IMG/VR virus record: IMGVR_UViG_3300031539_000189
Location: 1-31,564 of that record
Reading direction: 5' to 3' (one strand)
DNA from: a virus
DNA: 31,564 nt
Of this stretch, positions 640-15,630 are shown piece by piece (position 1 is the first letter of the stretch; every line of letters begins with the position of its first letter). The notes under the pieces are model-generated. The model was not told the DNA's origin. It searched no databases and saw only the letters and a list, made by a program, of their open reading frames with translations. The position numbers were made by a program, and so were the translations under genes.

Positions 640-653
640 ACGTTCCCGCGCCC

Positions 654-1068: not shown

Positions 1069-1071
1069 CCG

Positions 1072-1978: not shown

Positions 1979-2106
1979 TGCCCCGGCGCGCGCCACGAGG
2001 CCGCATCTACCGGAAGGATTGGCTGCGCTCACTGAAGTTGTCGCCGCTCGAAATGGCGATAGTCGAGGTGGCGCTCATCCTATGGCTGAGGGAGCAGACG
2101 ACCTGA
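1978..2106 (+). CDS. 42-residue basic-helical peptide
   Basis: ATG 1978 overlaps the preceding TGA, and its own TGA overlaps ATG 2106, so it is held on both sides by overlaps typical of real genes here. The first 16 residues are Arg/Lys-rich; the rest is a hydrophobic-acidic helix (LSPLEMAIVEVALILWL). Possibly a small DNA-binding or membrane-associated adaptor; no family recognised. Confidence 0.45.
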   Translation: MPRRAPRGRIYRKDWLRSLKLSPLEMAIVEVALILWLREQTT

Positions 2107-2357
2107 TGGCACACATCGTCGGTCTGACAATCGACCAGCGCGAGGATGGGGTCTGGTTTGTGTTCTCCTGGGAGGGGGACGACTGGCACGCCGCGCTCGA
2201 CGCGGTGAAGGAGCGTATTCCGCCCGAGGCGCGCGAGTTCGACAAGGAGGGGAAGGTCTGGCGGGTTGCCGAGGCGTTCGAGGACGAACTCGCCGAGATC
2301 TTCAGCAACTTCGCCGGCAGTCTGGACGCGATCAGAAGCCAAGTGAGCATGTTCTGA
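2106..2357 (+). CDS. Small HARP-like protein next to SNF2 helicase
   Basis: An 83-residue protein. ATG 2106 is preferred over an upstream start in the same frame because it gives the TGATG overlap. It carries ALDAVKERIPPEAREFDKEGKVWRV and ends in LAEIFSNFAG. The 'P..aR.fd...k.Wrv' pattern is also the signature of HARP-like N-terminal domains of annealing helicases, and the SNF2 gene two positions downstream carries a comparable segment. A role as a separate DNA-binding partner of that helicase is inferred, not shown. Confidence 0.45.
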   Translation: MAHIVGLTIDQREDGVWFVFSWEGDDWHAALDAVKERIPPEAREFDKEGKVWRVAEAFEDELAEIFSNFAGSLDAIRSQVSMF

Positions 2358-2358
2358 G

Positions 2359-2988
2359 ATGCCCACCGCCCCGACCACAACCCGCGGAGGACGATCGCCG
2401 GGCCGCCTGATACGCGTCGCCCTGGTGGTCGACTACCTGCGCGGCGGATGGCGGAGCGGGCAGGAGATCATGGCGCACGTCGAGATGGAGTCGGAGCGTA
2501 TCGGCCAGCGGACGGCCTACAACAACGTCCAGGGAGCGACGAGGAATGCAAAGCTGCGGGCACTGCTCGGCGGCCTGTGCTGGCAGTACATGGACGTGAA
2601 CGAGCAGATGACGGATGCGGGCAGCGCCTTCCGTCTCTGGACTGTGACCGAGGAAGCGGTGCCGCGTGCGCACGATGCATGGCAGAAGGGGCGCGCCGAG
2701 GTCGTGATGCTGACCGGCGATCCGCAAAACCCCACCGTGCGGCGGTACAGGCGGCCGGACTTGAGCGGAGCGAAGGCGCGGACCAGCGCGGAGATCGAGC
2801 GGAGAGAAGCGGAGTTGGAGAGGCAGCGGGGCGGAGCGGAACCGACCCTTGGCATGTACCAGGGCAACGGAAGCACCGTGAGCGCGCAGGCGCAACACCG
2901 GGGTCCGACCGCTCCCACCTCCCACGACGGCATTCGCCTGGGTCCGGAGCCGGGACCGCAGGACGGCGAGCAGAGGAGGTTGCTGTGA
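2359..2988 (+). CDS. Uncharacterised protein preceding SNF2 helicase
   Basis: A 209-residue protein. Residues 12-105 look like a compact helical, possibly winged-helix, domain (VVDYLRGGWRSGQEIMAHVEM ... RTAYNNVQGATRNAKLRAL). A charged linker and a Gly/Pro/Gln-rich tail of about 55 residues follow. The N-terminal arrangement resembles a helix-turn-helix with a wing, so DNA binding is a fair guess. Its stop overlaps the GTG start of the helicase gene. Confidence 0.45.
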   Translation: MPTAPTTTRGGRSPGRLIRVALVVDYLRGGWRSGQEIMAHVEMESERIGQRTAYNNVQGATRNAKLRALLGGLCWQYMDVNEQMTDAGSAFRLWTVTEEAVPRAHDAWQKGRAEVVMLTGDPQNPTVRRYRRPDLSGAKARTSAEIERREAELERQRGGAEPTLGMYQGNGSTVSAQAQHRGPTAPTSHDGIRLGPEPGPQDGEQRRLL

Positions 2989-4610
2989 TCCTGACCTTCA
3001 CGGACAGCCGCTTCGAGGCCATCGCCTCCTATATGGAGCGCGATCTGTGCAAGCGGCAGGGCCTGCGGTGGGATCCCACGCGCAAGCGTTGGTGGACGCC
3101 GGACTGGCACGTGGCCTCGAAACTGTCCGGCTACTGCGATGAGAAGGCCCGGGCCGAGATCGGCCGCCACCAGGTGCGGACCGAGAAGACGCTGGACGCC
3201 TCCCGCGCGGTGGACGCGGAGATCGACATACCGGTGCCGCAGGGCCAGGAGTTGCGCGGATACCAGAAGGCGGGCGTCGCCTACGCGCTGGCGCGCCAGA
3301 CGACTCTGATCGCCGATGAGATGGGCGTCGGGAAGACCATAGAGGCCCTAGCGTTGATAAACGCCGACCCGACGCTCCGGTTCGTGCTCGTCGTCTGCCC
3401 GGCAAGCGTGAAGATCAACTGGAAGCGGGAGGCGCGGGCCTGGTTGACACGCCCGATGAGCATCGGCATTGCTGGCGACGGGTTCCCGGTCACTGACATG
3501 GTCATCCTCAACTGGGACATTCTGCGAAAGTACCGCGCCCCGCTTCGGACGCGCCAGTGGGATCTCGCCATCTTCGATGAGAGCCACCGGGCGAAGAACC
3601 CCGGCGCCCAGCGCACCGCCGAGGTCTTCGGCCAGCGGGCGAACAAGCTGAAGGGTCGCGAGCGGATCGATCCAATCCCGGCGCGCCGACGCCTCTACCT
3701 GACCGGGACGCCGATTCTCAACCGCCCGATCGAGCTCTGGCCCATTCTGAAATCGCAGGGTTGGAACTGGCTGGAGTTCGTGACCCGTTACTGCGCCGCG
3801 GAGCAACACGAAGTCTCGGTGGGGCGGGGCAAGAAGCGGCTTGTCTGGGATGTCTCAGGCAATTCCAATCTGGAGGAACTCCAGGAGCGGCTTCGCTCCG
3901 AGTTGATGATACGACGGCTGAAATCCGAGGTTCTGCCCGACCTGCCACCGAAGCGCCGCCAGATCATCGAGGTGTCGGCGAACGGAGCTGATCGCCAGGT
4001 GCAGGCTGAGCTGGCCCTCGTGAGGGGTCTCGCTCCAGCCGCCAGCGACGACGGCTTCCTCGAGGCCGTCATGCGCCTCCAGCAGCGCGAGTTCGGGGCA
4101 TTCGGGGAGCTCTCCCGTCTGCGGCACGAGACGGCACTGGCCAAGGTGCCGGCGGTGGTCGAGCACATCGTCGACTGCATCGAGTCGAGTCCGAAGATCG
4201 TCCTGTTTGGCCACCACAAGGACGCGCTGGCAGAGATCCGGCACGGCCTCACGCGGGCAGGCATCAAGAGCGTCGTGCTGACCGGCGACATGACGAACAT
4301 GGAGGACCGGCAGCGATCGGTCGACCAGTTCCAGAACGACCCCGAGGCCCAGGTGTTCTGCGGCACGATTGGGGCGGCTGGCGTCGGGATCACGCTGACA
4401 GCCGCGAGCCATGTGGTGTTCGCGGAGCTGGATTGGGTGCCCGGGAGCATGTCGCAAGCGGAAGACCGGTGTCACCGCATCGGGCAGCGTGACTCAGTGC
4501 TAGTGCAGCACATCGTCTTCGAGGGATCGCTGGACGCCATGATAGCGCAGACGCTGGTGCGGAAGCAGGCAGTGATCGACATGGCGCTGGACAGGGAGGC
4601 GGTGGCGTGA
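2985..4610 (+). CDS. SNF2-family DNA helicase/translocase with HARP-like N-terminus
   Basis: 541 residues from GTG 2985, chosen for the GTGA overlap and the GAGGAGG site at about 2973. Residues 1-50 (FTDSRFEAIASYM... RWDPTRKRWW) resemble the HARP/SMARCAL1-type DNA-binding segment. The SNF2 core follows: Q-like LRGYQKAGV, Walker A MGVGKT near residue 113, Walker B DESH near 197, LTGTPILNRP, and a C-terminal lobe with VLTGDM, GVGITLTAASHVVF and the arginine-finger motif DRCHRIGQ near 493. It is expected to be an ATP-driven dsDNA translocase, in fork remodelling or recombination. All canonical motifs look intact. Confidence 0.92.
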   Translation: MILTFTDSRFEAIASYMERDLCKRQGLRWDPTRKRWWTPDWHVASKLSGYCDEKARAEIGRHQVRTEKTLDASRAVDAEIDIPVPQGQELRGYQKAGVAYALARQTTLIADEMGVGKTIEALALINADPTLRFVLVVCPASVKINWKREARAWLTRPMSIGIAGDGFPVTDMVILNWDILRKYRAPLRTRQWDLAIFDESHRAKNPGAQRTAEVFGQRANKLKGRERIDPIPARRRLYLTGTPILNRPIELWPILKSQGWNWLEFVTRYCAAEQHEVSVGRGKKRLVWDVSGNSNLEELQERLRSELMIRRLKSEVLPDLPPKRRQIIEVSANGADRQVQAELALVRGLAPAASDDGFLEAVMRLQQREFGAFGELSRLRHETALAKVPAVVEHIVDCIESSPKIVLFGHHKDALAEIRHGLTRAGIKSVVLTGDMTNMEDRQRSVDQFQNDPEAQVFCGTIGAAGVGITLTAASHVVFAELDWVPGSMSQAEDRCHRIGQRDSVLVQHIVFEGSLDAMIAQTLVRKQAVIDMALDREAVA

Positions 4611-4960
4611 TCGAGTTACTGATGGCAGGAGGCCGCACAGGACCCGTCTGCACCTGTGATTGGTGCGGAGAGCGCATCCGAGCGGCCGCGGACGGTAACG
4701 CGCTCTGGTTTCTGACTGCCGACTACCAGATTGACCGGCAGGCGACGGCTTACACTCGCGGCGGTGAAGCCAAAACGGGCGAACTCTTCCTGACCCACAA
4801 GTGCTGTTATGCCGGATGGCGCCGCCGAAACGAGGATGCTGTGGGGCGTTTCGCCATGAGCGCCGAGCTCGCCGCACACATCGTCTTTCTGACGCAGAAT
4901 GTTGCGATAGATTGGAAGCGGGCGAGAGCAGTCGCGAAGATGACGGCCGAGATCATGTGA
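4607..4960 (+). CDS. Small putative zinc-binding protein
   Basis: A 117-residue protein. GTG 4607 overlaps the helicase stop (GTGA); ATG 4622 is an alternative start. CTCDWCGERI at the N-terminus and THKCCYAGW in the middle could supply a four-Cys/His zinc site. The C-terminal third is helical. No family recognised. Its coupling to the SNF2 gene suggests joint expression. Confidence 0.5.
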   Translation: MIELLMAGGRTGPVCTCDWCGERIRAAADGNALWFLTADYQIDRQATAYTRGGEAKTGELFLTHKCCYAGWRRRNEDAVGRFAMSAELAAHIVFLTQNVAIDWKRARAVAKMTAEIM

Positions 4961-5024
4961 AGTAACCCTGGACTTGTCGGGCGGTCAGAGCGATGAATGC
5001 AAGGGCGAAAGGAGGTGATGCTCG

Positions 5025-5216
5025 ATGCTGACGAGAGCCTGGTACTGGGTGACGTTCTCGGTCCAAGCCGGGAGGCGCGGCGCGATCCACGAGGCCCGCA
5101 ACTGCGCCGCGTTTGTCCTGAGCGAGGCCGACGTGAGGATCGGACGGAAGAAGGCGCAGGCGCTGATTGATTCCGGGAAGGCGTGGCTGTGCAAGCGGTG
5201 TTCAACCATGAAGTAG
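5025..5216 (+). CDS. Small protein with C-terminal CxxC
   Basis: A 63-residue protein with one of the best ribosome sites in the window (AGGAGGTGAT at 5009-5018). It begins with aromatic beta segments (WYWVTFSVQ), has a helical middle and ends in WLCKRCSTMK. The lone CxxC could complete a site with the internal Cys or act in a dimer. Function unknown. A 12-codon ORF at 4994-5032 overlaps its start and could be a leader peptide. Confidence 0.55.
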   Translation: MLTRAWYWVTFSVQAGRRGAIHEARNCAAFVLSEADVRIGRKKAQALIDSGKAWLCKRCSTMK

Positions 5217-5234
5217 CCCGGTGGGGTGACCGGG
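5217..5234 (+). other. Stem-loop ahead of the replication initiator gene
   Basis: CCCGGT and ACCGGG separated by 6 bases, starting directly after a stop codon. No T-tract follows. Another CATAGACG motif occurs at 5252-5259, the fourth in the first 5.3 kb. Confidence 0.35.
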
Positions 5235-5275
5235 TGGGGCAAGTGTCGCAGCATAGACGCAGCACGGAGGAAGCG

Positions 5276-6103
5276 GTGGCGAGGAGACGACTGGCGAACC
5301 CGGACCGATTTGCGAGCAACACCATATCCGGCTGCTGCCGGACCATGAACGATCTTCTCCCGCGTGACATATATGACGTGTGTTGGGGCGAAGTGGCGAA
5401 CGATTTCGGGGTCTTTCAGGTGTCGGCGGAGCTCATTCGGACGAGTGGTTTTCCGCGACTGCTCGACACAAACCTCGCCACCATCCCGAAAATTGAGCGG
5501 GCCTTGGCCCTGCTGACGAAGGGCGGCCAGTGGCTGGCCTGGGTGGACCGCACATCGAAGCTACGGTGGGCCATCTTCCCCAGGTGGGGCGACGAGCAAA
5601 CCATCGGAAATCCGAGTCCGAATCGCGACCCCGTTCCACCCGACAGAATCCTCGCGAAGTGCTCGCTAAAGACTCGCGAGTTCTACGCGAAGTTTTCGCG
5701 AACTATTAGCGGCGGATTCGCTCCAGACAACTACTACTTAAAGGAGGGGGTAGATAAGGCCTTGGAGGAAGGGGAGGGGGTGCAGGGGGAGGGGTCGGGG
5801 ATCGACCCGGAACTGCTCCCACTGGTGCAGCAACTGCACTCCGTCATGGGCTATCAGGCCGACGTGCCCAAGGACGTGGATATGCTCGTGCGGGCGGTGG
5901 GGCTGTATGGGATAGCCCTGGTTCGCCACGTCGTCGGCTCCTGGGTGCTACGACGCCAGGATGACCCCCTCAAGCCGAAAGCCCGTCCGAGGGTCGAGCT
6001 GTGGAACTGGTTCCGAATCCAGAAAGGATGGGACGGTGACAGAAGCAGCGGGAGTCAAGCCGCCCCCCGAGAAAGCGCGGCGAAGGGCTGGACGCCCGGC
6101 TAG
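5276..6103 (+). CDS. Phage replication initiator (winged-helix, O/DnaD-like)
   Basis: 275 residues. GTG 5276 is chosen over upstream starts because GGAGG precedes it and because family members begin MARRR...NP. The N-terminal half follows the usual order of phage initiators: a helical entry, a 'DFGVF' turn, LALLTKGGQWLAWV, then a strand reading LRWAIFPRWGDEQTIGNPSPN. The rest is a flexible linker and a helical C-terminal domain. It should bind origin repeats and hand DNA to the helicase loader encoded next. Five tandem 11-bp repeats and a G-quadruplex motif lie inside the gene, as an origin lies inside lambda O. Confidence 0.7.
   Translation: MARRRLANPDRFASNTISGCCRTMNDLLPRDIYDVCWGEVANDFGVFQVSAELIRTSGFPRLLDTNLATIPKIERALALLTKGGQWLAWVDRTSKLRWAIFPRWGDEQTIGNPSPNRDPVPPDRILAKCSLKTREFYAKFSRTISGGFAPDNYYLKEGVDKALEEGEGVQGEGSGIDPELLPLVQQLHSVMGYQADVPKDVDMLVRAVGLYGIALVRHVVGSWVLRRQDDPLKPKARPRVELWNWFRIQKGWDGDRSSGSQAAPRESAAKGWTPG
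5652..5706 (+). repeat. Five tandem 11-bp iterons: candidate replication origin
   Basis: Exactly phased units: TCGCGAAGTGC, TCGCTAAAGAC, TCGCGAGTTCT, ACGCGAAGTTT, TCGCGAACTAT. Four keep CGCGA after the first base, and the spacing is about one helical turn. Because 11 is not a multiple of 3, the repetition is not explained by repeated amino acids. A locally AT-richer stretch (about 5700-5742) and a strand-asymmetric G-rich tract follow. The position inside the initiator gene matches lambdoid origins. Confidence 0.65.
5771..5800 (+). other. G-quadruplex motif next to iterons
   Basis: Five G-runs of 4-5 bases (5771-5774, 5776-5780, 5785-5789, 5791-5794, 5797-5800) with loops of 1, 4, 1 and 2 bases, a canonical quadruplex pattern on the + strand. 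It lies inside the initiator coding region and encodes Gly/Glu-rich linker residues, so linker composition could explain part of it. Confidence 0.5.
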
Positions 6104-6905
6104 CATGGCAGAGCTACTGACACCACCCCCAGACGCGCCGCCGAAGCCTGAGCCGCTGCTGTGCGAGTGCGGGACGCCTGTGGTGCCGGCCTGGTGGCCG
6201 GCGGGGAAACTGCCGCGCTGGATTCGCGGAACGAGGTGCGGAGCCTGTCTCGAGCGTGACGAGGCGGATCGCCGGCGGAAGCGCGACGAGGCGGAGCGGC
6301 GGCGAACTCTGCGAGAGCGGATCCTACGCGCTGGTATCGACGGTATGCGGCGCCGGCAGACGCTAGAGGCCTTCCAGGCTATGCCCGGCACGGCATCTGC
6401 GCTCAAGGCGGCCACGGCGTTCGCTACCTGCCAGGAGTTGCCCGCCCGCGGCATCCTGTTCGTCGGCCCGAACGGGTCGGGGAAGACGCACCTGGCGACG
6501 GCGATCCTGAACACCGTTCTCGATCGTGACTTGCGAGTGACCGGCGCCTTCGTCACCTTCGCCGGCTACCTGCGGCGGCTCATGGCGGCGTTCTCGGACT
6601 CGGAGAGGGCCGGAGATGCGGACTCTTTGCGGCGGCTGATGGAGTCCGTCGGCCTGCTCGTGCTCGACGACCTGGGCGCGGCGGGCAAGAAGCGTAGCGG
6701 CTGGGACTCGGAGGAGCTTGTCGGCGTGCTGGACGCTCGAGACGCTACGGGACGGCCGCTGATCGCGACGACGGACCTGGGGGAGCGGGGGCTCGAAGAG
6801 CATCTCGGCCCGCGGGTGGTGAGCAGGCTGTACGGGATGTGCCGGGTCGTTCCGATGGCGGACGGGGAGACGGAGGCGGGGGATTATCGGAGGAGGCGAG
6901 GGTGA
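6036..6905 (+). CDS. DnaC-like replicative helicase loader (AAA+ ATPase)
   Basis: 289 residues from GTG 6036, preceded by AAAGGA. It overlaps the initiator gene by 68 bases; ATG 6105 is the alternative start but has no ribosome site. A Cys pair CECG and a CGAC pair form an N-terminal zinc element, then comes an Arg/Glu-rich helix. The AAA+ core has Walker A GPNGSGKT (residues 144-151), Walker B LLVLDDLGA and a sensor-like IATTDL. DnaC/DnaI-type loaders place DnaB-family helicase at origins. No phage helicase of that family is visible here, so the host's is probably used. Confidence 0.8.
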   Translation: MTEAAGVKPPPEKARRRAGRPASMAELLTPPPDAPPKPEPLLCECGTPVVPAWWPAGKLPRWIRGTRCGACLERDEADRRRKRDEAERRRTLRERILRAGIDGMRRRQTLEAFQAMPGTASALKAATAFATCQELPARGILFVGPNGSGKTHLATAILNTVLDRDLRVTGAFVTFAGYLRRLMAAFSDSERAGDADSLRRLMESVGLLVLDDLGAAGKKRSGWDSEELVGVLDARDATGRPLIATTDLGERGLEEHLGPRVVSRLYGMCRVVPMADGETEAGDYRRRRG

Positions 6906-6909
6906 GGTG

Positions 6910-7026
6910 ATGATGCCCGAGTGGTTGGCCAAGGCATGTCTGCTGCTAATCGCGGTGGGGTTCATCTCTGCGGTCATTGAGATAGTCCTCGAGGTCATGG
7001 GCTGTCGGAAGAGGAGGCGAGGGTGA
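6910..7026 (+). CDS. 38-residue single-span membrane protein
   Basis: ATGATG at 6910, with in-frame GTG 6907 as another candidate. One hydrophobic helix (CLLLIAVGFISAVIEIVLEVM) is followed by a CRKRRRG tail, so the C-terminus is predicted cytoplasmic by the positive-inside rule. The stop overlaps the next gene's GTG. It is too short for a holin assignment and lies far from any lysis gene. Function unknown. Confidence 0.5.
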   Translation: MMPEWLAKACLLLIAVGFISAVIEIVLEVMGCRKRRRG

Positions 7027-7289
7027 GCGGCGAGTGGCCCTCCTGCAAGCACGGGACGACGCCGACCCAGGCATGGGTGAACACACGGTTCGGCCGGCCC
7101 TGCTCGCATCTAGTCGAAGGGAAGCCGCCGCAGCGGGAGGGCGGGTATTGGGATATGAAACGATTCCGCCAGCACCAGCAGTTGTGCTCGGCGATGGAGG
7201 TGCGGATATGTCAGCGGCCGGCTGGCCGGCGATGCTCCGTCGTGACGGATCCGGGAGCCTGTGAGCGGTGCGAAGAGAGGGAGGCGTGA
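7023..7289 (+). CDS. Cys-rich small protein
   Basis: An 88-residue protein from GTG 7023, which overlaps the preceding stop (GTGA). Seven cysteines and several histidines (SCKHG, RPCSHL, QQLC, ICQ, RCSV, ACERCE) suggest one or two zinc sites. No family recognised. It lies directly before a nuclease gene and may be coupled to it. Confidence 0.45.
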   Translation: MSGEWPSCKHGTTPTQAWVNTRFGRPCSHLVEGKPPQREGGYWDMKRFRQHQQLCSAMEVRICQRPAGRRCSVVTDPGACERCEEREA

Positions 7290-7290
7290 G

Positions 7291-7959
7291 ATGGTGACCG
7301 AGGCCGAACTCGCCAAGCCGCTGATACCGTGGCTCGAGGCCCAACACTGGACCGTCTACCAGGAAGTGCAGTGTTCCATGTACGGCGCGGTGGCTGACAT
7401 CGTGGCGTTGCAGGGCAACCTGTCATGGGTAATCGAGGTGAAGCGGAGCCTGACATTCGCGCTGATCGAGCAGGCCACTCAGTGGCATGGTCGGGCGCGG
7501 TTTGTCTCGGTCGCCGTGCCGTCGCCGAAGACGCGAGCCAAGGGCAGGCGCATCGCAGAGAACCTGCTAGAGCAAATGGGCATAGGCCTCATTCTGATCG
7601 GCGACGAGAACTGGCGCGAACCCAACCAGGTCATAGGGCCGGCGCTCCGTCGGCGTCTGTACGAGGGCCTCGCCATCGCGAAGTTCTGCACGGAACAGCA
7701 TAAGACGTGGGCGGAGGCGGGGACGGCCGGCTCGGATCACTGGACGCCATTCCAGCAGACCGCGCGGGATGTTTGCCGATATGTCGGTGAGCATCCTGGC
7801 TGCTCTCTCAAGGAGCTCGTTGACGGCATCGACCACCACTACAACCGGGATGCGACGGCTCGGTCATGCCTTGCCAGGTGGCTGAGAGAAGGCGTTATCA
7901 AGGGGGTGCGCGTGGAGCAGGCAGGGCGGGCGATCAAGCTGTATCGGGAGGCGGCATGA
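7291..7959 (+). CDS. PD-(D/E)XK-fold nuclease with C-terminal winged helix
   Basis: 222 residues from ATG 7291; a GGGAGG site lies 6-11 bases upstream. Residues 15-75 show the PD-(D/E)XK core: a strand with VYQEV, Asp36 in GAVADIVAL, and the IEVK motif (Glu49, Lys51), followed by a helix and an FVSVAVP strand. About 70 C-terminal residues look like a winged helix (FQQTARDVCRYVGEHPGCSLKELVDGI). VRR-NUC and related phage nucleases act on DNA in replication or repair. No methyltransferase partner is adjacent, so a restriction role is unlikely. Confidence 0.68.
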   Translation: MVTEAELAKPLIPWLEAQHWTVYQEVQCSMYGAVADIVALQGNLSWVIEVKRSLTFALIEQATQWHGRARFVSVAVPSPKTRAKGRRIAENLLEQMGIGLILIGDENWREPNQVIGPALRRRLYEGLAIAKFCTEQHKTWAEAGTAGSDHWTPFQQTARDVCRYVGEHPGCSLKELVDGIDHHYNRDATARSCLARWLREGVIKGVRVEQAGRAIKLYREAA

Positions 7960-8261
7960 GACTCGGCACGATCATCGACACGAAGCGCCCGCTGGACCTG
8001 GACCTGGACACGCTCGTCGCTACCCGGCTGCTCGTGACAGCGACCAGCGGAGGCGGCAAATCCTGGGCCCTGCGGCGGATCCTCGACGCGCTGGTAGACG
8101 ATGGCGGCGCCGGCATGACGCGTGAGCAGATCGGGGAGGCGTCGGCGTTGGAGCCGAGCAGCGGGACGTTTGGCACCTACCTGGGAGAGCTGAAGCGCAA
8201 CGGTCTGGCCGAGGAGAGCGGCGGGCTGATTCGACTGGCGGAATTTCTGAGGGAGGTGTGA
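7956..8261 (+). CDS. Internally deleted HerA-like ATPase (P-loop joined to C-terminal winged helix)
   Basis: 101 residues with an ATGA overlap at the start. Residues 1-45 (LGTIIDTKRPLDLDLDTLVATRLLVTATSGGGKSWALRRIL) match the N-terminus of phage/prophage HerA/DUF87 ATPases, with P-loop ATSGGGKS at 29-36. Residues 52-101 (AGMTREQIGEASAL...SGTFGTYLGELKRNGLAEESGG) match the C-terminal winged helix of the same proteins. The middle few hundred residues, with Walker B and arginine finger, are absent. The reading frame is intact and embedded in the operon, so it may still work as a small DNA-binding protein. Confidence 0.6.
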   Translation: MRLGTIIDTKRPLDLDLDTLVATRLLVTATSGGGKSWALRRILDALVDDGGAGMTREQIGEASALEPSSGTFGTYLGELKRNGLAEESGGLIRLAEFLREV

Positions 8262-8575
8262 TGTTTGAAGGCATCGCGGTATGGTTGCTGGACAAGTTCA
8301 GAAAGCCGAAGGGCAAGCTGCACCTTCTCAGCGAGAGATCGGTCGGGAATGTGCATGACGGCTACGCGCTCGCCTGCCAGTGGGATCGCCCGATAGACGG
8401 GCTCTTCGCTAACAAACAGACAGAACGGAGCGCGGACCCGAACGCATGGCCGGCGTTGCCGATCTGCAAGCACTGTCTACGGATCGCTGGATACCGCCGA
8501 CATGGAGCGGAACGGGAACGCGATGTTCTGCTCGCATTCGTAGCTCGCGCCGAGGCGATGGAGGGAGCGCCATGA
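8261..8575 (+). CDS. Small protein with CxxC motif
   Basis: A 104-residue protein. GGGAGG is followed by TGATG, so ATG 8261 is coupled to the upstream stop. The layout of a His (HLLSERSV), a lone Cys (ACQW) and a CKHC pair (LPICKHCLRIAG) is shared by many phage proteins with one His-Cys-CxxC zinc site. The rest is helical. Function unknown. Confidence 0.5.
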   Translation: MFEGIAVWLLDKFRKPKGKLHLLSERSVGNVHDGYALACQWDRPIDGLFANKQTERSADPNAWPALPICKHCLRIAGYRRHGAERERDVLLAFVARAEAMEGAP

Positions 8576-8958
8576 TCCACATCGCCAACGTCCGCGACTT
8601 TCTCGTTCCGAACCCGACCGGCCGGGGCAAGCGTGCCGTGTTCCCCGACGAGGCGCACGTCTGGGTCGGGCGGGCGGCCCCGCGCTGGGGACTGAAGGCG
8701 AGTCCGCTGGCGAATCCGTCCGCGATTAGGGACTTCATGGGAACGACTCGCGATGAGAAGCGACGCTGGTGCATACGTGCCTATCGCATCGGTTTGCAGA
8801 ATGCTCTGATTGTCCGGGAGCCCCAGAAGCTTGCCGAACTCGCCCGCCTTCGCGCTATCCACGAGAAGCACGGTCGCCTGACGCTGGTGTGTGCGTGTGC
8901 GCCGAAGCCTTGCCATGCGGAAGAAATACGCCGAGTCCTGTTGGAGGGATTGACGTGA
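8572..8958 (+). CDS. DUF4326 family protein
   Basis: A 128-residue protein with an ATGA overlap at the start. It carries the family's fixed points: VWVGRAAPRWGLKASPLANP near residue 28, a RWCIRAYR helix, and the C-terminal LTLVCACAPKPCHAEEIRRVL, where CxC and CH probably bind metal. DUF4326 is common in phages and mobile elements and its biochemical role is not established. Its last codons overlap the -35 box of a promoter for the following HNH element. Confidence 0.75.
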   Translation: MIHIANVRDFLVPNPTGRGKRAVFPDEAHVWVGRAAPRWGLKASPLANPSAIRDFMGTTRDEKRRWCIRAYRIGLQNALIVREPQKLAELARLRAIHEKHGRLTLVCACAPKPCHAEEIRRVLLEGLT

Positions 8959-8978
8959 GCGCCCACGCTCGGTATACT
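8950..8978 (+). promoter_or_regulatory. Sigma-70-type promoter for the HNH element
   Basis: -35 TTGACG (8950-8955), 17-bp spacer, -10 TATACT (8973-8978): 5 of 6 consensus bases in each box at optimal spacing, the best promoter match in the window. The -35 box overlaps the last codons of the DUF4326 gene. A start near 8985 would put the 5' end at the first arm of the structured leader. Confidence 0.7.
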
Positions 8979-8983
8979 AGTAG

Positions 8984-9088
8984 TGCTACAGGTCGTGGAA
9001 TGAGAGGCGCTCTTTTGCTGGCCCAATCTGGCAGTCCCGGACCATCCGCGACCTGTAGCAAGCGAGCGGCTCTCGGCCCGGGACTGTC
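8984..9088 (+). ncRNA. Pseudoknot-capable leader RNA upstream of HNH endonuclease
   Basis: Stem 1 pairs 8984-8999 with 9045-9060 (16 bp, one G-U). Stem 2 pairs 9030-9040 with 9078-9088 (11 bp, one G-U). The 5' arm of stem 2 lies in the loop of stem 1 and its 3' arm outside, which is H-type pseudoknot topology, or two alternative folds if they exclude each other. TTTT follows stem 2. The start of the RNA coincides with the predicted transcript start. No known ribozyme or riboswitch class was matched. Confidence 0.55.
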
Positions 9089-9104
9089 CCTTTTGGAGAC
9101 AGCG

Positions 9105-9635
9105 ATGGCAGACGAAACGCAGGAAGAGTGGCGGCTGATCGGAGGATTTCCGGGATACGAGGTGTCTAGCCTCGGGAGGGTTCGGTGCTGGAACCCGATA
9201 AATCGCAATGCTTTCCCCCCAAGGGAACCGAGGATGCTGAGGCCAGGCCGTCATAGTGCTGGATACCTTACGGTGTCTCTGGTTGCTTCGGGGAAGCATA
9301 GATCGCGGTATGTCCATCGTCTCGTGCTGGAGGCATTCGTTGGCCCTAGTCCGAGTGGGATGGAATGCCGACACCTTGATGGCGACCGGCAGCACAACGT
9401 TCTGTCCAACCTTGCATGGGGAACGTGCGGAGATCAGGTTTCTGATCGGAGACAACATGGCACCCTGGAACGAGGCGAGGCTCATCACGCGAGCAAGCTC
9501 ACGGAGCAGCAGGTTCGCGAGATAAGGCGGACGACGGGAACTGTAACGGAAGCCACGTGGGCGGACAGGTTGGGTCTCAGTCCAGCGGCTATCCATGATG
9601 CGCGCAGTGGTCGCAACTGGGGATGGGTCAAATGA
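9105..9635 (+). CDS. HNH homing-type endonuclease (NUMOD4-HNH)
   Basis: A 176-residue protein; ATG 9105 follows TGGAGA. The frame is open back to 8955, but that extension is low-complexity and overlies the RNA structure. Residues 5-45 (EEWRLIGGFPGYEVSSLGRVRCW) are a NUMOD4 domain. The HNH core reads VHRLVLEAFVGP, CRHLDGDRQHNVLSNLAWGT. A C-terminal helix-turn-helix (LTEQQVREIRR...WADRLGLSPAAIHDARSGRNWGWV) probably gives target specificity. Such proteins cut DNA and promote their own spread. Here the gene sits between two genes with its own promoter and no visible intron. Confidence 0.85.
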   Translation: MADETQEEWRLIGGFPGYEVSSLGRVRCWNPINRNAFPPREPRMLRPGRHSAGYLTVSLVASGKHRSRYVHRLVLEAFVGPSPSGMECRHLDGDRQHNVLSNLAWGTCGDQVSDRRQHGTLERGEAHHASKLTEQQVREIRRTTGTVTEATWADRLGLSPAAIHDARSGRNWGWVK

Positions 9636-9691
9636 AGCCCTGCCATGCGTTGGTCATCAAGGAGTTGCTGAAGGAGGCCGCCGGTGTTTGA
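9632..9691 (+). CDS. Possible 19-residue ORF
   Basis: ATG 9632 overlaps the HNH stop (ATGA). The peptide (MKPCHALVIKELLKEAAGV) ends inside the start of the resolvase gene. It could be a translational bridge or the remnant of a gene interrupted by the HNH element. Confidence 0.2.
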   Translation: MKPCHALVIKELLKEAAGV

Positions 9692-10208
9692 GGTCTTCAT
9701 CGCCGGCGACAACGGAGTGAACGGCGCCATGGTCGTCGGGCGCATCGGGACCAGCGGCATTGAGATCCTCGCCCCGCCCTTCGTCTGGTGGCACAGGCGC
9801 ACCCCCAAATATGACCTGCACAAAGAGGAAATCTTCGACCGCCTGCGCTTCTGGATACAGGAGTATCGCCCCCGCTTCCTGGCGATGGAGCAAGCGAAAG
9901 TCCACAAGGGCCGGCGGCTCGTCGTTGTGTCGCAGGCATGGAAGGGCGCCGAGCTGGCGTTGGTGGCGAGTCAGTGCCCGAACCCGCCTGAGCTGATGAT
10001 GGTACCGGGGCAGGGCTGGAAGCGGACGGACGAGGGCTGGGCGATCCTGCGATCGAGCTTCGCCGAGATCGTGAGCCGGGATGAGCTGCGGGAACTGGGC
10101 GGGCCCAAAGGGGAGAACGTAAGAGACTGCTGCGCGATCCTCGTTCGCGCGGAGGCGCAGTGGGATGAGATGAGGAGGAAGATGCGAGATGCCAGAGCTC
10201 AAGGCTGA
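9684..10208 (+). CDS. RuvC-like Holliday junction resolvase / RNase H-fold nuclease
   Basis: 174 residues from GTG 9684, with AAGGAGG at 9671-9677. It has an RNase H-fold pattern: VFIAGDNGVNGAMVV with the first acid, FLAMEQ with the second (Glu), a Q-W-K-G helix, a central MMVPGQGWKR strand, and a late ENVRDCCAILVRAEA helix with the third Asp. Phage RuvC-like enzymes resolve replication or recombination branches before packaging. The glycine-rich strand is GDNGVNGA rather than the usual GIDPGxxGA, so the family is clear but the subtype is not. Confidence 0.62.
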   Translation: MFEVFIAGDNGVNGAMVVGRIGTSGIEILAPPFVWWHRRTPKYDLHKEEIFDRLRFWIQEYRPRFLAMEQAKVHKGRRLVVVSQAWKGAELALVASQCPNPPELMMVPGQGWKRTDEGWAILRSSFAEIVSRDELRELGGPKGENVRDCCAILVRAEAQWDEMRRKMRDARAQG

Positions 10209-10476
10209 AGACCTCAAAATCGGGCGGTGGTACAGGGCGAAGAAACCGGCGCCCGCGCGGGGCCAACTGGGACCCGTGGTCAATGACAGGGAGATCATCT
10301 GGATGGGGAATGGCTTGGTGCAGTATGACGGCCCGGCCGTGCGTGACGGGCAGCACTTCCCCAGGGTGTTCGTCGAGAACTTCCTCAAGTGGGCCCACCG
10401 TGACGTAACCGACGAGCTGCCGCCGGGCGACTGGGAGACGTGGGAGAGCTACCGGGAGGTCAAGGCCAGAGCATGA
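10189..10476 (+). CDS. Conserved hypothetical protein
   Basis: A 95-residue protein. ATG 10189 lies within the end of the resolvase gene; GAGGAGGAA precedes it. It is predicted mostly beta (LKIGRWYRAKKPA, REIIWMGNGLVQYDG) with a C-terminal FLKWAHRDVTDELPPGDWETW. It resembles small barrel-like phage proteins of unknown role. The stop overlaps the radical SAM gene start. Confidence 0.5.
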   Translation: MPELKAEDLKIGRWYRAKKPAPARGQLGPVVNDREIIWMGNGLVQYDGPAVRDGQHFPRVFVENFLKWAHRDVTDELPPGDWETWESYREVKARA

Positions 10477-11333
10477 AGCGCATCCTCCGCGTCTTCCCCC
10501 GCCGAACGAAGGCCACCCCGACCGATGAGCTCGCGTTCATCGGAGGGCCCGGGCTGTTCCTGCCACCGGCCGACGAGATCGACGAGGTGCATATCAGCAT
10601 CACCTTCCAGGCCGATGCCGGCGACTCCATGAACGGCCTGCGGAATGCCTGGGAACACCACTACCCAGGGAAGGTCCTGTACGGCGGGCCGGCCTTCGGA
10701 CTCATCCATGCCAGCAACCGCGAGGATACGTTCGTTCCGGGCCGCTATCTGCGCCTGGGCTACACCATCACGAGTCGCGGCTGCCCCAACGATTGCCCCT
10801 GGTGCATGGTGCCTCATTGGGAGGGCGATCTGCGGGAGATCCGCCCGATACCCGAGGGCCACATCGTCCAGGACAATAACCTGCTGGCCTGTTCCGATCG
10901 GCATGTCGAGCTCGTCTTCGAGATGCTCACACACCAGCGGCGCGCGGCGAAATTCGCCGGCGGCTTCGAGGCGGAGCGCGTAACGCCCGCCCTGGTGGAG
11001 CAGCTCCAGGCGCTGCGCATCGAGGAGATCTGGCTGGCCTTCGATGATGAGTTCTCCAGGGAGGCCGTCGTTCGGGCGATCGGGCTGTTGCGGAAGGCTG
11101 GACTCACGCGCCGGCAGGTGCGGTGCTACGTCCTGGCCGCCTTTGAGGATGAGGACACGCCGGCAGCGGCCGAGGCGAGGTGCGAGGATATGCTCGGCGC
11201 CGGCGCCCTGCCTTTCGCCATGATGTATCAGCCTCCGGAGTGCCGCACGTACCGGGGAGAATGGGCGGCGGTGCGCCGCAAGTGGACGCGGCCGGCGGCG
11301 ATGCTGGCGCGCAAGGGAGCTTCTGATGGCTGA
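10473..11333 (+). CDS. Radical SAM enzyme, phage type
   Basis: A 286-residue protein with an ATGA overlap at the start. The [4Fe-4S] motif is Cys104, Cys108, Cys111 in RGCPNDCPWCMVP (CX3CX2C). Upstream is a Rossmann-like half (PPADEIDEVHISITFQAD ... VLYGGPAFG) like the shortened cobalamin-binding lobe of B12-type radical SAM proteins. Downstream are EGDLREI, DNNLLAC and EIWLAFDDE, typical of the TIM-barrel part. The substrate is unknown; candidates include nucleobase, tRNA or protein methylation or rearrangement. A SplB-like radical SAM gene follows one gene later. Confidence 0.75.
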   Translation: MKRILRVFPRRTKATPTDELAFIGGPGLFLPPADEIDEVHISITFQADAGDSMNGLRNAWEHHYPGKVLYGGPAFGLIHASNREDTFVPGRYLRLGYTITSRGCPNDCPWCMVPHWEGDLREIRPIPEGHIVQDNNLLACSDRHVELVFEMLTHQRRAAKFAGGFEAERVTPALVEQLQALRIEEIWLAFDDEFSREAVVRAIGLLRKAGLTRRQVRCYVLAAFEDEDTPAAAEARCEDMLGAGALPFAMMYQPPECRTYRGEWAAVRRKWTRPAAMLARKGASDG

Positions 11334-11610
11334 ACTCGGCACGATCCGACGTGACGGCGACAGGCTCTACATCCGCCTCCCGCGTCAATCGTTCGGTCCC
11401 ATCCCGACAGTGGGAGGCTACTGGGCTGAGGTCTGCCCGCACGCGATCGAGGGACTCGGGGATCTCGCAGAGGGCGCGGTGATCGACCACGAGGCCCTGC
11501 TGCTGCGCGGCGAGCTCGTGGTGGTGAGAGAGCCGCCGACGCGCATGGATGACCAGACGTTCGAGGCGTTGATGCGGGAGGCAGATGCGATGGGAAAGGC
11601 GGAGCAGTGA
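11326..11610 (+). CDS. Hypothetical protein between two radical SAM genes
   Basis: A 94-residue protein overlapping both neighbours. Predicted beta-rich N-terminus (LGTIRRDGDRLYIRLPRQSFG), then a helical acidic end. No motif recognised. Its fixed place between two radical SAM genes suggests a partner or substrate-recognition role, which is inference only. Confidence 0.45.
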   Translation: MAELGTIRRDGDRLYIRLPRQSFGPIPTVGGYWAEVCPHAIEGLGDLAEGAVIDHEALLLRGELVVVREPPTRMDDQTFEALMREADAMGKAEQ

Positions 11611-12380
11611 AAGCGATCTACGAACCCAAAGGCAAGGCTCGGGAGTATGCGCCCCTGGCCTGCAACCTCTACTCCGGCTGCGTCCACGGCTGCCTCTACT
11701 GCTACGTGCCCCAGGTGGTGCACCGCAAGCGCGAGGAGTTCCACGCCGAGGCGACGCCGCGCCTGGGGATATTGGATGCGTTGCAACGGGACGCGCAGAC
11801 CTATGCTGGCACGGAGTGGCCGGTCCTGCTCTCGTTCACGTCCGACCCCTACCCGCCGATCGAGGAGGAGTTGGAGGTCACGCGCGATGCCATCGGGATT
11901 CTCACGGCGCGCAACATCCCCGTTCACGTCCTGACGAAGGCCGGGATGAGGGCGGCTCGAGACTTCCCGCTGCTGAAGGGGCGAGGCTGCGCGTTCGGGA
12001 CGACGCTGGTGTTCGCCGGGCTGGTCGGAGAGGCGCTGCGCGAACACTGGGAGCCACATGCGGCGACGATCCACAGCCGCGTCACAGCGATCCGCATGGC
12101 TCATTCCCTGGGAATCCCGACCTTCGTGAGCATCGAGCCTATCATCGACCCCTTGCAGGCAATCGTGCTGATCGAGACGCTGTCCGACGTGGTCGACGAG
12201 TGGCGGATCGGGAAACTCCACTATCACGCCCACGCGCAGACAGTGGACTGGGCCGAGTGGACGCCGCGGATCTATGAGGCGTTGCTGGCGTCGGGCCGGC
12301 GCTACCTTGTGAAGGAGAGCCTGCGGGAGTATCTGCCGGAGGGGACGACGTTCGTGGGAGGCTCGAATGGCAAGGCGTAG
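11607..12380 (+). CDS. SplB-like radical SAM protein
   Basis: 257 residues from GTG 11607 (GTGA overlap). NLYSGCVHGCLYCYVP carries Cys25, Cys29 and Cys32, the radical SAM cluster motif. The sequence then follows the SplB-like (spore photoproduct lyase-related) pattern: REEFHAEATPR, LLSFTSDPYPPIEEE, VHVLTKAG, FGTTLVFAG, VSIEPIIDPLQ, WRIGKLHYH and YLVKESLR. True SplB repairs the spore thymine dimer. Phage members lack a proven substrate, so DNA repair, DNA modification or another reaction are all open. Confidence 0.78.
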   Translation: MKAIYEPKGKAREYAPLACNLYSGCVHGCLYCYVPQVVHRKREEFHAEATPRLGILDALQRDAQTYAGTEWPVLLSFTSDPYPPIEEELEVTRDAIGILTARNIPVHVLTKAGMRAARDFPLLKGRGCAFGTTLVFAGLVGEALREHWEPHAATIHSRVTAIRMAHSLGIPTFVSIEPIIDPLQAIVLIETLSDVVDEWRIGKLHYHAHAQTVDWAEWTPRIYEALLASGRRYLVKESLREYLPEGTTFVGGSNGKA

Positions 12381-12609
12381 CCGAAGAGCGAGGCGAGAAG
12401 GCCGGGGAGCGGAGGTCGTGTCGATACCGGTCGCGAATATCAGAGCGATGGTGCAGGCGATCCCAGAGGAGTCGGAGCTCTGGACATCCCAATTCGGCGA
12501 GATGACGAAGGCCGAGATACTGGTGCGGGTGGCGCGCCTCGAGATGAACAACAGGACTGTCATCGCAGCGGTTCGAGAACCTGACGGCCGGCTGAGGATG
12601 AAGCTGTGA
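12367..12609 (+). CDS. Small basic protein
   Basis: 80 residues, GGGAGG before ATG 12367, overlapping the SplB-like gene by 14 bases. The first 15 residues are almost entirely Arg (MARRSRRARREGRG), followed by a helical acidic section and a short hairpin (RTVIAAVREPDGRLRM). Probably binds nucleic acid through its N-terminus; no family recognised. Confidence 0.45.
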   Translation: MARRSRRARREGRGAEVVSIPVANIRAMVQAIPEESELWTSQFGEMTKAEILVRVARLEMNNRTVIAAVREPDGRLRMKL

Positions 12610-12640
12610 GGGGCCTCTCGAGGGCGGGAGGTCCTTCCTG

Positions 12641-13114
12641 ATGGCGTGGGGACTCTACGGACACATACGCGCTCCGCTTGAGTTCGGCGCCGAGTTCCAG
12701 GCCCTCTGTGCGCGCCCCTACCATGGGCACCCGCGTGGCTGCCCCAATCATGGCAAGCGTGGATCATGTCCACCGGCGGCGCCGCTTATCGACCAGGTGC
12801 TCGACCTCTCGAGGCCGGTCTACGTGATCGCGACCCGGTTCGATCTGGGCGCGCACGTTCAGCGAATGCGGGAGCGACACCCCGACTGGTCAGAGCGGCA
12901 ACTCTACTGCTGCCTGTACTGGCAGGGGACGGCGCGCAAGACTCACCGGGAAGATGTGAAGTGGGCGCGGGGCCAGTGGGGATTCCGCCGCGTCGTATTC
13001 ACGCCCGAAGGGCACGGGGTCAACGTGACCGCGCTGATGGCCGCGCATGGGGTGACGCTGGAATGGCCGCCGAGGCGGTATACCTGGGTCGTCAGCCTGG
13101 GAGGGGTCGCCTAG
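12641..13114 (+). CDS. DUF2284-like predicted metal-binding protein
   Basis: A 157-residue protein with GGGAGG about 11 bases before ATG 12641. It shows the Cys layout LCARPYHGHPRGCPNHGKRGSCPP, then RPVYVIATRFDL, HPDWSERQLYCCLYWQGTARK, and a C-terminal GVNVTALMAAHGVTLEWPP. Clustered Cys with CPNxGxxxxCPP is typical of DUF2284, thought to bind an Fe-S cluster or zinc. It follows two radical SAM genes and precedes a DNA methyltransferase, which suggests a redox or cluster-handling part of the same pathway. Confidence 0.65.
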   Translation: MAWGLYGHIRAPLEFGAEFQALCARPYHGHPRGCPNHGKRGSCPPAAPLIDQVLDLSRPVYVIATRFDLGAHVQRMRERHPDWSERQLYCCLYWQGTARKTHREDVKWARGQWGFRRVVFTPEGHGVNVTALMAAHGVTLEWPPRRYTWVVSLGGVA

Positions 13115-14394
13115 TGTCCCAGCTCGCCCTGTCAACCGAAGAGGAGCGCTCCTACCTGGCAGCGTGGATCAACGAGCCTGATCCCGGCGCGCCGCCGCGC
13201 TTCATCGAGGGCGACGGGCGAGAGGTCCTCAAGCGGTTTCCGGCCGACAGCTTCGACTTCGAGGGGACCAGCCCGCCCTACCCTCGTGCGCAGCGGAAGC
13301 CCGAGGATCTTGGCAGGTATCGGCGGTTCGTCGACGACAGCGGCAGTCTGCTGCCGGGAGCGAACGACATCCCGAGGGTGCATACGGCGGCGAGGAAGCT
13401 GCACCAGCAAGGATACCGAGACGAGGACTTCCAGGAAGAGAACCGGCGCCGGAAGCGGGAGCAATACGCGCTGGAGAAGGGGGACGATCACCCGAACGGG
13501 CTGATGTCACAGACGGACAGGGCCGCCATGGCGCGGCGCCGGGAGGAGCTCGCCGGAGAACACGCCGACGCGCCGCGAGGCCGCAGGGAGAGGGACCTGG
13601 CCGCCCGGCAGGCCGACCTGCTCGACGCGGGACGATCGCCGCACGCCCGGAAGAAACTGGAGCGGGAAGGCCTTCGATCTCCACACCGGGATGCCCGCGA
13701 GGGCTTCAAGCACGGCAAGCCCAACCTCAAGGGCGAGACCGGGCTCTCCGTCCAACTGACTCCTGCTGAGTGGTGGCCCTGGTTCCGGCCGTTCGCGGTG
13801 GAGCTGCTCCGGGTGTTGAAGCCGCGCCGATCGCTCCTGCTGAACGTCGGCGGCGTGGTGAGCGAGTCCTGGCACCACAGCACCTATGACTGGGATCTGC
13901 CGCGCCAGATGGAGAGCCTGGGCTGGAAGTTCATTCGCCCCATCTACTGGGTGAAGCCGAACGGGCCGCCCTGCACGGCCGAGGGGTCGATGACCAACGT
14001 GGTCGAGCACATCTTCTGGTTCGCCAAGGGCACGAGTCCGGATGTGGGCCCGGAGTGGTTCCCCTGGGAGTTGCACCAGACGAAGGTCGGCACGCCGACG
14101 AAGCGGCCGATCGTGCGGAACGTCTTTGACTTCCCGGTGGGGCAGACGCGATGGCCGGAGGGACAGGCGCACTTCGCCTGCTTCCCCTCGGCGATGGCGG
14201 AGCGGATGGTCCGGGGATGGTCGGCGCCGGGGGAGCTTGTGCTCGATCCGTTCTCCGGCTCCGGGACGTTGCCGCTCGCGGCGTGCCGGCAGGGCCGGCG
14301 GTGGGTGGGGATCGACCTCAACCCCGAGGGTGAGCTGGACTGCGCCCGGGCGCGGTGGGAAATGGAGTTCGGAGGAGAGCGTGGCAATGACTGA
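13114..14394 (+). CDS. DNA methyltransferase, SPPY type (beta class, likely N4-cytosine)
   Basis: 426 residues from GTG 13114, whose G is the last base of the previous TAG. Motif IV SPPY is at residues 53-56 and motif I DPFSGSGT at 378-385, the beta-class order. SPPY rather than DPPY favours N4-cytosine methylation. A highly charged region (about residues 65-200) lies between them and may contain the target recognition part. There is no cognate restriction gene nearby, so it is probably an orphan enzyme protecting phage DNA or marking it for packaging or regulation. Confidence 0.85.
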   Translation: MSQLALSTEEERSYLAAWINEPDPGAPPRFIEGDGREVLKRFPADSFDFEGTSPPYPRAQRKPEDLGRYRRFVDDSGSLLPGANDIPRVHTAARKLHQQGYRDEDFQEENRRRKREQYALEKGDDHPNGLMSQTDRAAMARRREELAGEHADAPRGRRERDLAARQADLLDAGRSPHARKKLEREGLRSPHRDAREGFKHGKPNLKGETGLSVQLTPAEWWPWFRPFAVELLRVLKPRRSLLLNVGGVVSESWHHSTYDWDLPRQMESLGWKFIRPIYWVKPNGPPCTAEGSMTNVVEHIFWFAKGTSPDVGPEWFPWELHQTKVGTPTKRPIVRNVFDFPVGQTRWPEGQAHFACFPSAMAERMVRGWSAPGELVLDPFSGSGTLPLAACRQGRRWVGIDLNPEGELDCARARWEMEFGGERGND

Positions 14395-14581
14395 CCACAA
14401 CGAACTGATCGAAAGACTCGCGGCTAAGATGTGCGAGTTCGAGCGTACCACCCATGGCTGGCGGCGCTGTAGCGAGACAACGAAGGACATCTACCGAGAT
14501 CGCGCGGGGGTGGCGTATCGGTTCTTCTGCGTCCACCTCGGAGTGCAGAGAATGCCTGGCGAGAAGGAGGATGAGGCCTGA
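14387..14581 (+). CDS. Small hypothetical protein
   Basis: A 64-residue protein. ATG 14387 is chosen at 9-base spacing from GGAGGAG; in-frame GTG 14381 is also possible. It is helical with AAKMCEFERTTHGW and a YRFFCVHLGV segment. Its start overlaps the methyltransferase end and its stop overlaps the ASCH gene (TGATG), giving a coupled trio. Function unknown. Confidence 0.5.
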   Translation: MTDHNELIERLAAKMCEFERTTHGWRRCSETTKDIYRDRAGVAYRFFCVHLGVQRMPGEKEDEA

Positions 14582-15036
14582 TGCACGCACTGACGGTGAA
14601 GCAGCCGCACGCGGAGCTGATCGTCTGCGGGATGAAGACCTTGGAGATCCGCACCTGGTGGCCGCGGGTGCAACTCCCGATGCTGGTGGCGATCCACGCA
14701 GGGAAACGGGCGGATGAGTTCGCGCCGGCAGAACTCTGGCGCATGGCAGACCCACATTTGCTGCACGGGAAATGGGCGGAACGCATGGGCGGCATCGTCG
14801 GCGTGGCGCGGTTCGTGGAGCGCATAGGTTTCGGAGACTACGGCGAGATCGAGGGTCGGGCGATGTGGGAGCGACTCGCCGACCAGCATCTCAACCCCCT
14901 CGACTCGTGGGCACCGAACAAGGTCGGCTGGCGCTTCGAGGCCCCGGTCCGCTTCCCCGAGTTCATCCCGTGCCGCGGCCGACAGGGGCTGTGGATGTTG
15001 CCGGAGGAAGCGGAGAGGCTGGTGGTGACCGACTGA
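14581..15036 (+). CDS. ASCH domain protein
   Basis: A 151-residue protein. MHALTVKQPHAELIVCGMKTLEIRTWW is the standard ASCH opening (VkqPwAxlIxxGxKtxExR). It continues with LVAIHAGKR, GGIVGVARFVE and GWRFEAPVRFPEFIPCRGRQGLW. ASCH proteins have a PUA-like beta barrel that binds modified nucleobases or RNA; some are ribonucleases or amidohydrolases acting on N4-acetylcytidine. Its position beside a putative N4-cytosine methyltransferase makes base recognition attractive, but this is inference. Confidence 0.8.
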   Translation: MHALTVKQPHAELIVCGMKTLEIRTWWPRVQLPMLVAIHAGKRADEFAPAELWRMADPHLLHGKWAERMGGIVGVARFVERIGFGDYGEIEGRAMWERLADQHLNPLDSWAPNKVGWRFEAPVRFPEFIPCRGRQGLWMLPEEAERLVVTD

Positions 15037-15401
15037 TGCCCTGTGAGCATATCCGCTTCGACAATCTGCGCGGGACGCAATGCGGAGTCACCGGTGTGAG
15101 CGTGACTGCGGATTGCGGGTCTTTCACCGGGGAGCGGTGTGCTCCGATGCTGGCGCTGGACGTGCGGGAAGGCCGGCTCGCCCTCGACGAGATACAGCGG
15201 CCGATGAACGCTGCTGTGCGGTCGGTGCTGATTCAACTCGGGGACCTAGAGCCGGAGGCGCCGCCGCTGCCGTTGGGGAAGCCGCGGACATACGCGCCGC
15301 GGAACCGGGGCAGGGGCAAGTGGAAGTGGAGTCCGGAGCAGCGCGCGAGGATGGCGGAGACGAAGCGGAAGTGGTGGGCGGCGAGAAAGGCGGCGAGATG
15401 A
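15036..15401 (+). CDS. Cys-rich protein with basic C-terminal tail
   Basis: A 121-residue protein with TGATG overlap. The N-terminal half has MPCEH, GTQCG, ADCGSFTGERC, a likely zinc knuckle. The C-terminus (RGRGKWKWSPEQRARMAETKRKWWAARKA) is strongly basic and resembles the DNA-binding NUMOD3-type repeat found near homing nucleases. It looks like a small nucleic-acid-binding protein; no family is certain. A 13-codon ORF (15398-15439) bridges it to the next gene. Confidence 0.5.
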   Translation: MPCEHIRFDNLRGTQCGVTGVSVTADCGSFTGERCAPMLALDVREGRLALDEIQRPMNAAVRSVLIQLGDLEPEAPPLPLGKPRTYAPRNRGRGKWKWSPEQRARMAETKRKWWAARKAAR

Positions 15402-15435
15402 TGGCAGAGACGGAGACACCAAAGGAGGCGATGGA

Positions 15436-15630
15436 ATGAGGGACTTCACAGAGGAAGAGCTGAGAGTGGGGCGACCAACGATGGCTCCGGCTGATACCAT
15501 CGCCTTCTGCCTTGGGCGACTGTTCGCCGATCGGACACGCGCCACCGGGGATGAGGTGGTGCCGGGGCTCACTTTTGAGGAGCTGATAGGCGCGCTCCTA
15601 CAGGCAGAGACGGAGAAGGCGACGGAATGA
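15436..15630 (+). CDS. Small hypothetical protein
   Basis: A 64-residue protein, AAAGGAGG 8-10 bases before ATG 15436. Predicted helical and acidic overall; no motif recognised. The stop overlaps the next ATG (ATGA). Confidence 0.45.
   Translation: MRDFTEEELRVGRPTMAPADTIAFCLGRLFADRTRATGDEVVPGLTFEELIGALLQAETEKATE

Follow-up and report, generated by a model that had tools for sequence, protein, structure and literature searches.

A putative RNA of three interlocked stems leads a homing-type HNH endonuclease unit inserted into a phage DUF4326 gene

The window, by which we mean the whole stretch of DNA analysed here, is a 31.6-kb virus contig with a G+C content of 65% that encodes terminase, portal-MuF fusion and prohead protease genes. 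The Mu F-like domain is fused to the portal protein at 24520-26694. Our analysis centred on a DUF4326 gene whose 3' end holds a sigma-70-like promoter, a predicted structured RNA and the gene of a homing-type endonuclease (Table 1). Elsewhere in the window, an N6/N4 DNA methylase is fused to a ParB N-terminal domain (17486-18793), and a second HNH gene of another type (18783-19385) lies directly 3' of this fusion. The stretch at 17200-17486 is apparently intergenic; it contains a hairpin resembling a terminator, followed by TTTTCGTTTT (17345-17372), and yielded no tRNA.

Table 1. Coordinates of the features of the inserted unit in the window and of the stems of the second RNA, in contig L113
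Feature	Position	Strand	Basis or remark
DUF4326 gene, invaded host gene	8572..8958	+	Pfam PF14216 (E 4.4e-8), reading frame
Left copy of 16-bp direct repeat, GAAGCCTTGCCATGCG, codes KPCHA	8904..8919	+	repeat search
Putative substitute gene end brought with the unit	8920-8958	+	last 13 codons and stop of DUF4326
Sigma-70-like promoter TTGACG-17-TATACT	8950..8978	+	10/12 match
Stem A, 5' arm	8984..8999	+	
Stem B, 5' arm	9002..9012	+	one G-G mismatch
Stem C, 5' arm	9030..9040	+	
Stem A, 3' arm (A')	9045..9060	+	
Stem B, 3' arm (B')	9064..9074	+	
Stem C, 3' arm (C')	9078..9088	+	
Shine-Dalgarno GGAGA	9095..9099	+	sequence, pairing probabilities
NUMOD4-HNH_3 homing-type endonuclease gene, 176 aa	9105..9635	+	Pfam; PHROG HNH endonuclease
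Displaced, probably native DUF4326 3' end, MKPCHALVIKELLKEAAGV and stop	9632..9691	+	overlaps next gene start, 9684
Right copy of 16-bp direct repeat, GAAGCCCTGCCATGCG	9634..9649	+	begins within HNH stop codon
L113 stem A	4701-4718/4762-4779		18 bp
L113 stem B	4728-4738/4782-4792		11 bp
L113 stem C	4749-4761/4793-4805		13 bp

The unit is bounded by a 16-bp direct repeat, GAAGCC(T/C)TGCCATGCG, whose two copies are 94% identical and lie 730 bp apart, leaving about 714 bp between them. The present DUF4326 gene ends in ...KPCHAEEIRRVLLEGLT, and a second C-terminus, MKPCHALVIKELLKEAAGV, follows directly after the HNH stop codon. The substitute C-terminus EEIRRVLLEGLT resembles the displaced LVIKELLKEAAGV (window 8904-8958 and 9632-9691). 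A chimera carrying the downstream end scored higher than the present gene against both Pfam DUF4326 (36.0 versus 34.1 bits) and Pfam DUF488-N3a (28.9 versus 21.3 bits), suggesting that the downstream piece fits the family better and is, as judged from these scores, probably the native end of the gene. In a relative (L255), DUF4326, a methylase gene and radical SAM stand in a row, and the unit is absent. The insertion footprint, namely the repeat and the displaced end, together with this unit-free relative, argues that promoter, RNA and HNH gene arrived together with a substitute gene end. The sequence-only reading of this locus had described a self-contained mobile element between two genes; the flanking repeat and the interrupted host gene support its mobility, but its position must be corrected, as the unit lies inside the 3' end of DUF4326. 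From its sequence, the unit appears to restore the gene that it has entered, perhaps through co-conversion of a donor's gene end, and the KPCHA-coding region of DUF4326 is the predicted target site of the HNH enzyme.

The HNH protein matched Pfam HNH_3 (E 4e-12) and NUMOD4 (E 5e-6), above the curated cut-offs, and H71, H90, D92, N98 and N102 are conserved in its alignment. The promoter upstream of it is the only promoter-like match within positions 1-16000, and one equally good at the right distance from a point would be met at 0.02% of window positions. It ends 5 nt before stem A (8978 to 8984), and the first bases of the 5' arm of stem A are the expected transcription start, in agreement with the earlier proposal that a near-consensus sigma-70 promoter leads into the first arm of a 16-bp stem. 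The promoter spacer contains a palindrome, GAGCG-CCCA-CGCTC (8957-8971), both 5-mers of which are seen again in stem B; it is possible that the palindrome serves as an operator or as an alternative pairing on read-through RNA. We also considered I-TevI-style autorepression through a look-alike of the homing site, which found no support: local alignment of the insertion site with 8920-9105 gave similarity below the chance level, that is, the insertion site does not resemble the promoter region beyond chance.

The RNA expected from this promoter has three stems in the strand order A B C A' B' C' within a span of 105 nt. Stem A has 16 bp (15 Watson-Crick pairs and one G-U) and stem C, which interlocks with it, has 11 bp (10 Watson-Crick pairs and one G-U). 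These two stems had been reported from sequence alone and both were recovered; stem B had gone unnoticed. It forms 10 of 11 possible pairs, with one G-G mismatch, and crosses both A and C. The suggestion that such long complementary arms are unlikely by chance was borne out by two kinds of shuffling. In 60 shuffles of the 31.5-kb window, no helix exceeded 14 Watson-Crick pairs, compared to 15 in stem A, and in 30 whole-window shuffles the best triple scored 33.1, compared to 41.2 for A-B-C. At a cut-off of 28, the + strand of the window gave A-B-C and no other triple, and its minus strand gave none. For a local test, stem A was kept fixed, the loop and tail were shuffled with dinucleotides preserved, and two ordered crossing stems were scored. 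The score observed in the window was reached in 0/3000 local shuffles, or in 1/3000 when a 50-nt tail was used, a frequency of at most about 1/3000. Given A, two ordered crossing stems beat the local shuffles in the window and in a second locus, L113, with p at most 3e-4 in each. Control long hairpins from other loci reached p 0.01 in one of 106 cases, and that one is coding and of low complexity.

L113 (IMGVR_UViG_3300035179_000901) was chosen by scanning for interlocked stems in 1.3 Mb of collected sequence, where its locus stood far above all others and above shuffled sequence. It comes from a related phage whose terminase is 76% identical. The strand order and the 105-nt span are those of the window, and the stem sequences are different. 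When the two RNAs were aligned from their outer ends, 18 of 38 pairs had changed on both sides and still paired, and such changes occurred in A, B and C; the remaining changes comprised two one-sided pairs and one non-pairing position, the G-G of stem B in the window. Missing covariation among homologous leaders had been named beforehand as grounds for giving up the proposal, and the stems of L113 proved to be changed yet paired. An independent genome thus carries the same crossing architecture with altered but complementary stems, which is what we would ask of a new RNA family; two members of it are known, from one virus clade. Its most conserved part is the outer end of A (TGCNACAGG/CCTGTNGCA), and 10 of 16 pairs of this stem are identical in the two sequences. 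Apart from the G-G mismatch, all six non-Watson-Crick pairs (two in the window, four in L113) are G-U on the promoter's strand, and the L113 triple is weaker on the minus strand than on the promoter's strand. This G-U bias, together with the weaker or absent minus-strand triples, points to an RNA of the promoter's strand.

The promoter-like site of L113 is weaker than that of the window (8/12, with a TG-extended -10, TGATAGAGT), but it likewise ends 5 nt before A, and a site equally good at that spacing is found at 0.8% of positions. The gene 3' of the RNA encodes a GIY-YIG nuclease with a RAMA domain (4888-5604), for which tblastn gave no match among about 50,000 phage records. The leader is non-coding, with an in-frame stop at 4864 upstream of the GIY-YIG ATG at 4888. 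A repeat search recognised no direct repeat marking the insertion of the L113 unit.

Relatives of the HNH protein, about 29-45% identical (L002-L012 and L081-L086), had no A B C A' B' C' leader. Many are leaderless, and in several the HNH gene overlaps or directly adjoins the gene before it, indicating that the RNA does not follow HNH descent. HNH genes lacking the leader had been listed in advance as evidence against the same proposal, and the relatives provide exactly such genes. The coupling therefore survives as an association, extended by the GIY-YIG gene of L113, and fails as a specific link to HNH. In L002 and L003 the HNH gene is preceded by another non-coding leader, conserved between these two related loci and different in sequence. 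That the same RNA architecture stands before a different nuclease type in a related phage suggests that phage homing endonucleases are accompanied by a kind of RNA not described so far.

The triple scan was extended to about 3.5 Mb of loci in all, and L113 was the one further credible case; no third member was recovered from these loci or from the viral, genome, phage and plasmid collections. When exact 15-/16-mers of arm A and of the B-C loop were looked for in the viral collection, the matches were such as chance would give. Searching by pattern for the conserved outer arm of A re-found the L113 contig and no new structural member, and Blast of both leaders against phages and plasmids returned short, chance-level matches only. 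The other matches of the triple scan were discarded as coding sequence or tandem repeats, those of L125, L182, L218 and L279 as low-complexity GC, and that of L213 as palindromic recombinase sites. A triple in TurkishDelight (21866-21978, score 38.7) is intergenic, but it was rejected with no nuclease downstream and a local-test p of 0.12. Rfam gave no match to the window at the gathering threshold or at E 5, group I intron and known ribozymes included, and only weak matches to L113, far below the gathering scores. A limited literature search found no counterpart of the three-way interlocked architecture.

The linkers bear on how such an RNA could fold. At the putative junction they measure 2 nt (A-B), 3 nt (B'-C') and 4 nt (C-A') in the window and 9, 0 and 0 nt in L113. 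Instead of capping loops, the outer ends of the stems have connections between them, of 3 nt (window) or 2 nt (L113) from A' to B' and of 17 nt (window) or 10 nt (L113) from B to C. In the proposed three-dimensional fold of the 105-nt RNA, the inner ends of A, B and C would meet as a three-way junction, and linkers as short as these are plausible with the stems lying side by side, unlike the end-to-end stacking of an H-type pseudoknot. The summed energies of the isolated duplexes are -69 kcal/mol for the window and -88 kcal/mol for L113, before any pseudoknot penalty, compared to -49 and -71 kcal/mol for the cores in their best nested folds. The rival nested fold of L113 (-71.3 kcal/mol) pairs B with C and B' with C', and both of these stems are G+C-rich; the window has no equivalent strong nested alternative.

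We favor the reading that the locus is a homing unit for an HNH endonuclease whose mRNA begins with a knotted leader, and that this leader controls the expression, or dose, of the nuclease; we hold it at about even odds (roughly 0.5). A free-standing HNH unit would have inserted where DUF4326, close to its 3' end, codes for KPCHA, replacing the last codons of this gene and supplying its own promoter. In the mRNA from that promoter, the first 105 nt would fold as a compact knot of A, B and C, and read-through transcripts could fold otherwise. A knot at the 5' end should resist 5'-dependent decay, and it could thereby shield the mRNA. We infer that the knot controls translation or stability, and its 5'-terminal position may set both the dose and the timing of the nuclease. 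Pairing predictions for the window bring in the ribosome-binding site. The last five bases of C' (CTGTC, 9084-9088) can pair instead with GACAG (9098-9102), covering this site. In the nested ensemble all Shine-Dalgarno bases but one are fully paired, and with the core occupied their predicted pairing falls to 0-0.7. The Shine-Dalgarno sequence would therefore be open when C' is held in the knot and closed when C' lies on GACAG. This suggests a switch at the ribosome-binding site, for the window only. The site of L113 is predicted to be covered with or without the knot, indicating that such a switch is not conserved. Under nested folding, transcripts from the unit's own promoter and read-through transcripts have similar predicted pairing at the ribosome-binding site, which is covered in both.

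One challenge to leader control by a knot is that stem A might suffice, as a stabilising hairpin at the 5' end or, at the level of DNA, as an inverted repeat to which a regulator or repressor could bind, with B and C incidental and the L113 RNA nested. No other stem is as strong as A or has so conserved an outer end, the nested fold of L113 is very stable, and the palindrome in the promoter spacer would suit a regulator. However, the excess of crossing stems over local shuffles was calculated with A already in place and holds in both sequences, the control hairpins almost never showed it, and stem C has no strong nested alternative in the window. We consider this explanation doubtful. The opposite view, which gives the RNA more than a leader's part, is that it is a functional partner of the mobile unit, either a ribozyme or processing element or a trans-acting, guide-like RNA with exchangeable nucleases. 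Its high structural order, the retained outer end of A, the precise, intron-like insertion and the recurrence of one architecture ahead of nucleases as unrelated as HNH and GIY-YIG would be consistent with such a partner. The Rfam results, the lack of similarity between the insertion site and the leader region, and an HNH protein that is an ordinary NUMOD4-HNH_3 speak against it, and a conserved catalytic core is not recognisable from two sequences; we judge it unlikely.

The region could also be coding, with the HNH gene starting upstream at GTG 8955, overlapping the DUF4326 stop, or at ATG 9000, and with repeats that reflect protein sequence. An open frame does run from 8769 to 9635, but the Shine-Dalgarno sequence and ATG 9105 agree with the start of HNH relatives, and the in-frame stop of L113 parts its leader from the nuclease gene, making this very improbable. 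Chance or an assembly artefact would account for a unit seen in a single window with no close relative in the phage or plasmid collections; the shuffle statistics and an independent second case on another metagenome contig leave this scarcely credible. More ambitiously, the two RNAs may represent a new class of structured RNA, with three long stems interlocked as a knotted three-way junction, carried on homing-endonuclease units of phages whose nuclease type (HNH, GIY-YIG) can be exchanged and acting on its own account in the spread of the unit as a ribozyme, an exonuclease-proof 5' cap or a nuclease partner, a proposal that we put forward as tentative.

Three mutually crossing stems of 11-18 bp in 105 nt, kept while the sequence and the nuclease change, would be an unusual topology for a natural RNA, and an RNA of this size would be a compact test case for the folding of knots during transcription. 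If the repair reading is true, the window unit would also illustrate cleanly how a homing unit can mend the end of its target gene. Flaviviral exoribonuclease-resistant RNAs form a three-way junction closed by pseudoknots that protects against 5' decay. There is no relation in sequence or length between these RNAs and ours, the stems of the window are far longer, and any likeness would lie in the proposed shape and in protection from 5' decay.

Among mobile units, the lariat-capping (GIR1) ribozyme precedes the homing endonuclease in twin-ribozyme introns, which resemble the window unit in having a structured RNA near the endonuclease gene (PMC4167309). GIR1 differs in being derived from group I and lying within a self-splicing intron, and the window RNA has no Rfam match. 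The ShiLan insertion element places an HNH gene, intron-less and intein-less, inside a phage methylase gene, and it shares with the window unit a stop codon placed right where the insert ends; it differs in being out-of-frame, with the host gene reading through, and the parts of the ShiLan account used here report no structured leader of its own (PMC11855218). The unit also resembles the free-standing T4 homing endonucleases, in which own promoters and leader RNA structures control expression (PMC2988022). Aeh1 mobE splits its host gene, and in Aeromonas phage 25 the ribosome-binding site of seg43(25) is left unmasked, with a very stable hairpin immediately before it (PMC2988022). Like the window unit, these T4-type systems (I-TevI, segB, Aeh1 mobE and seg43(25)) combine a nuclease gene with a leader structure, several with their own promoter. 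The published homing-endonuclease leader structures compared here are described as hairpins (PMC2988022), whereas the RNA of the window would start directly with three stems of 11-16 bp that all cross one another, and, unlike the T4-type leaders, its architecture recurs in a related phage before a nuclease of another family.
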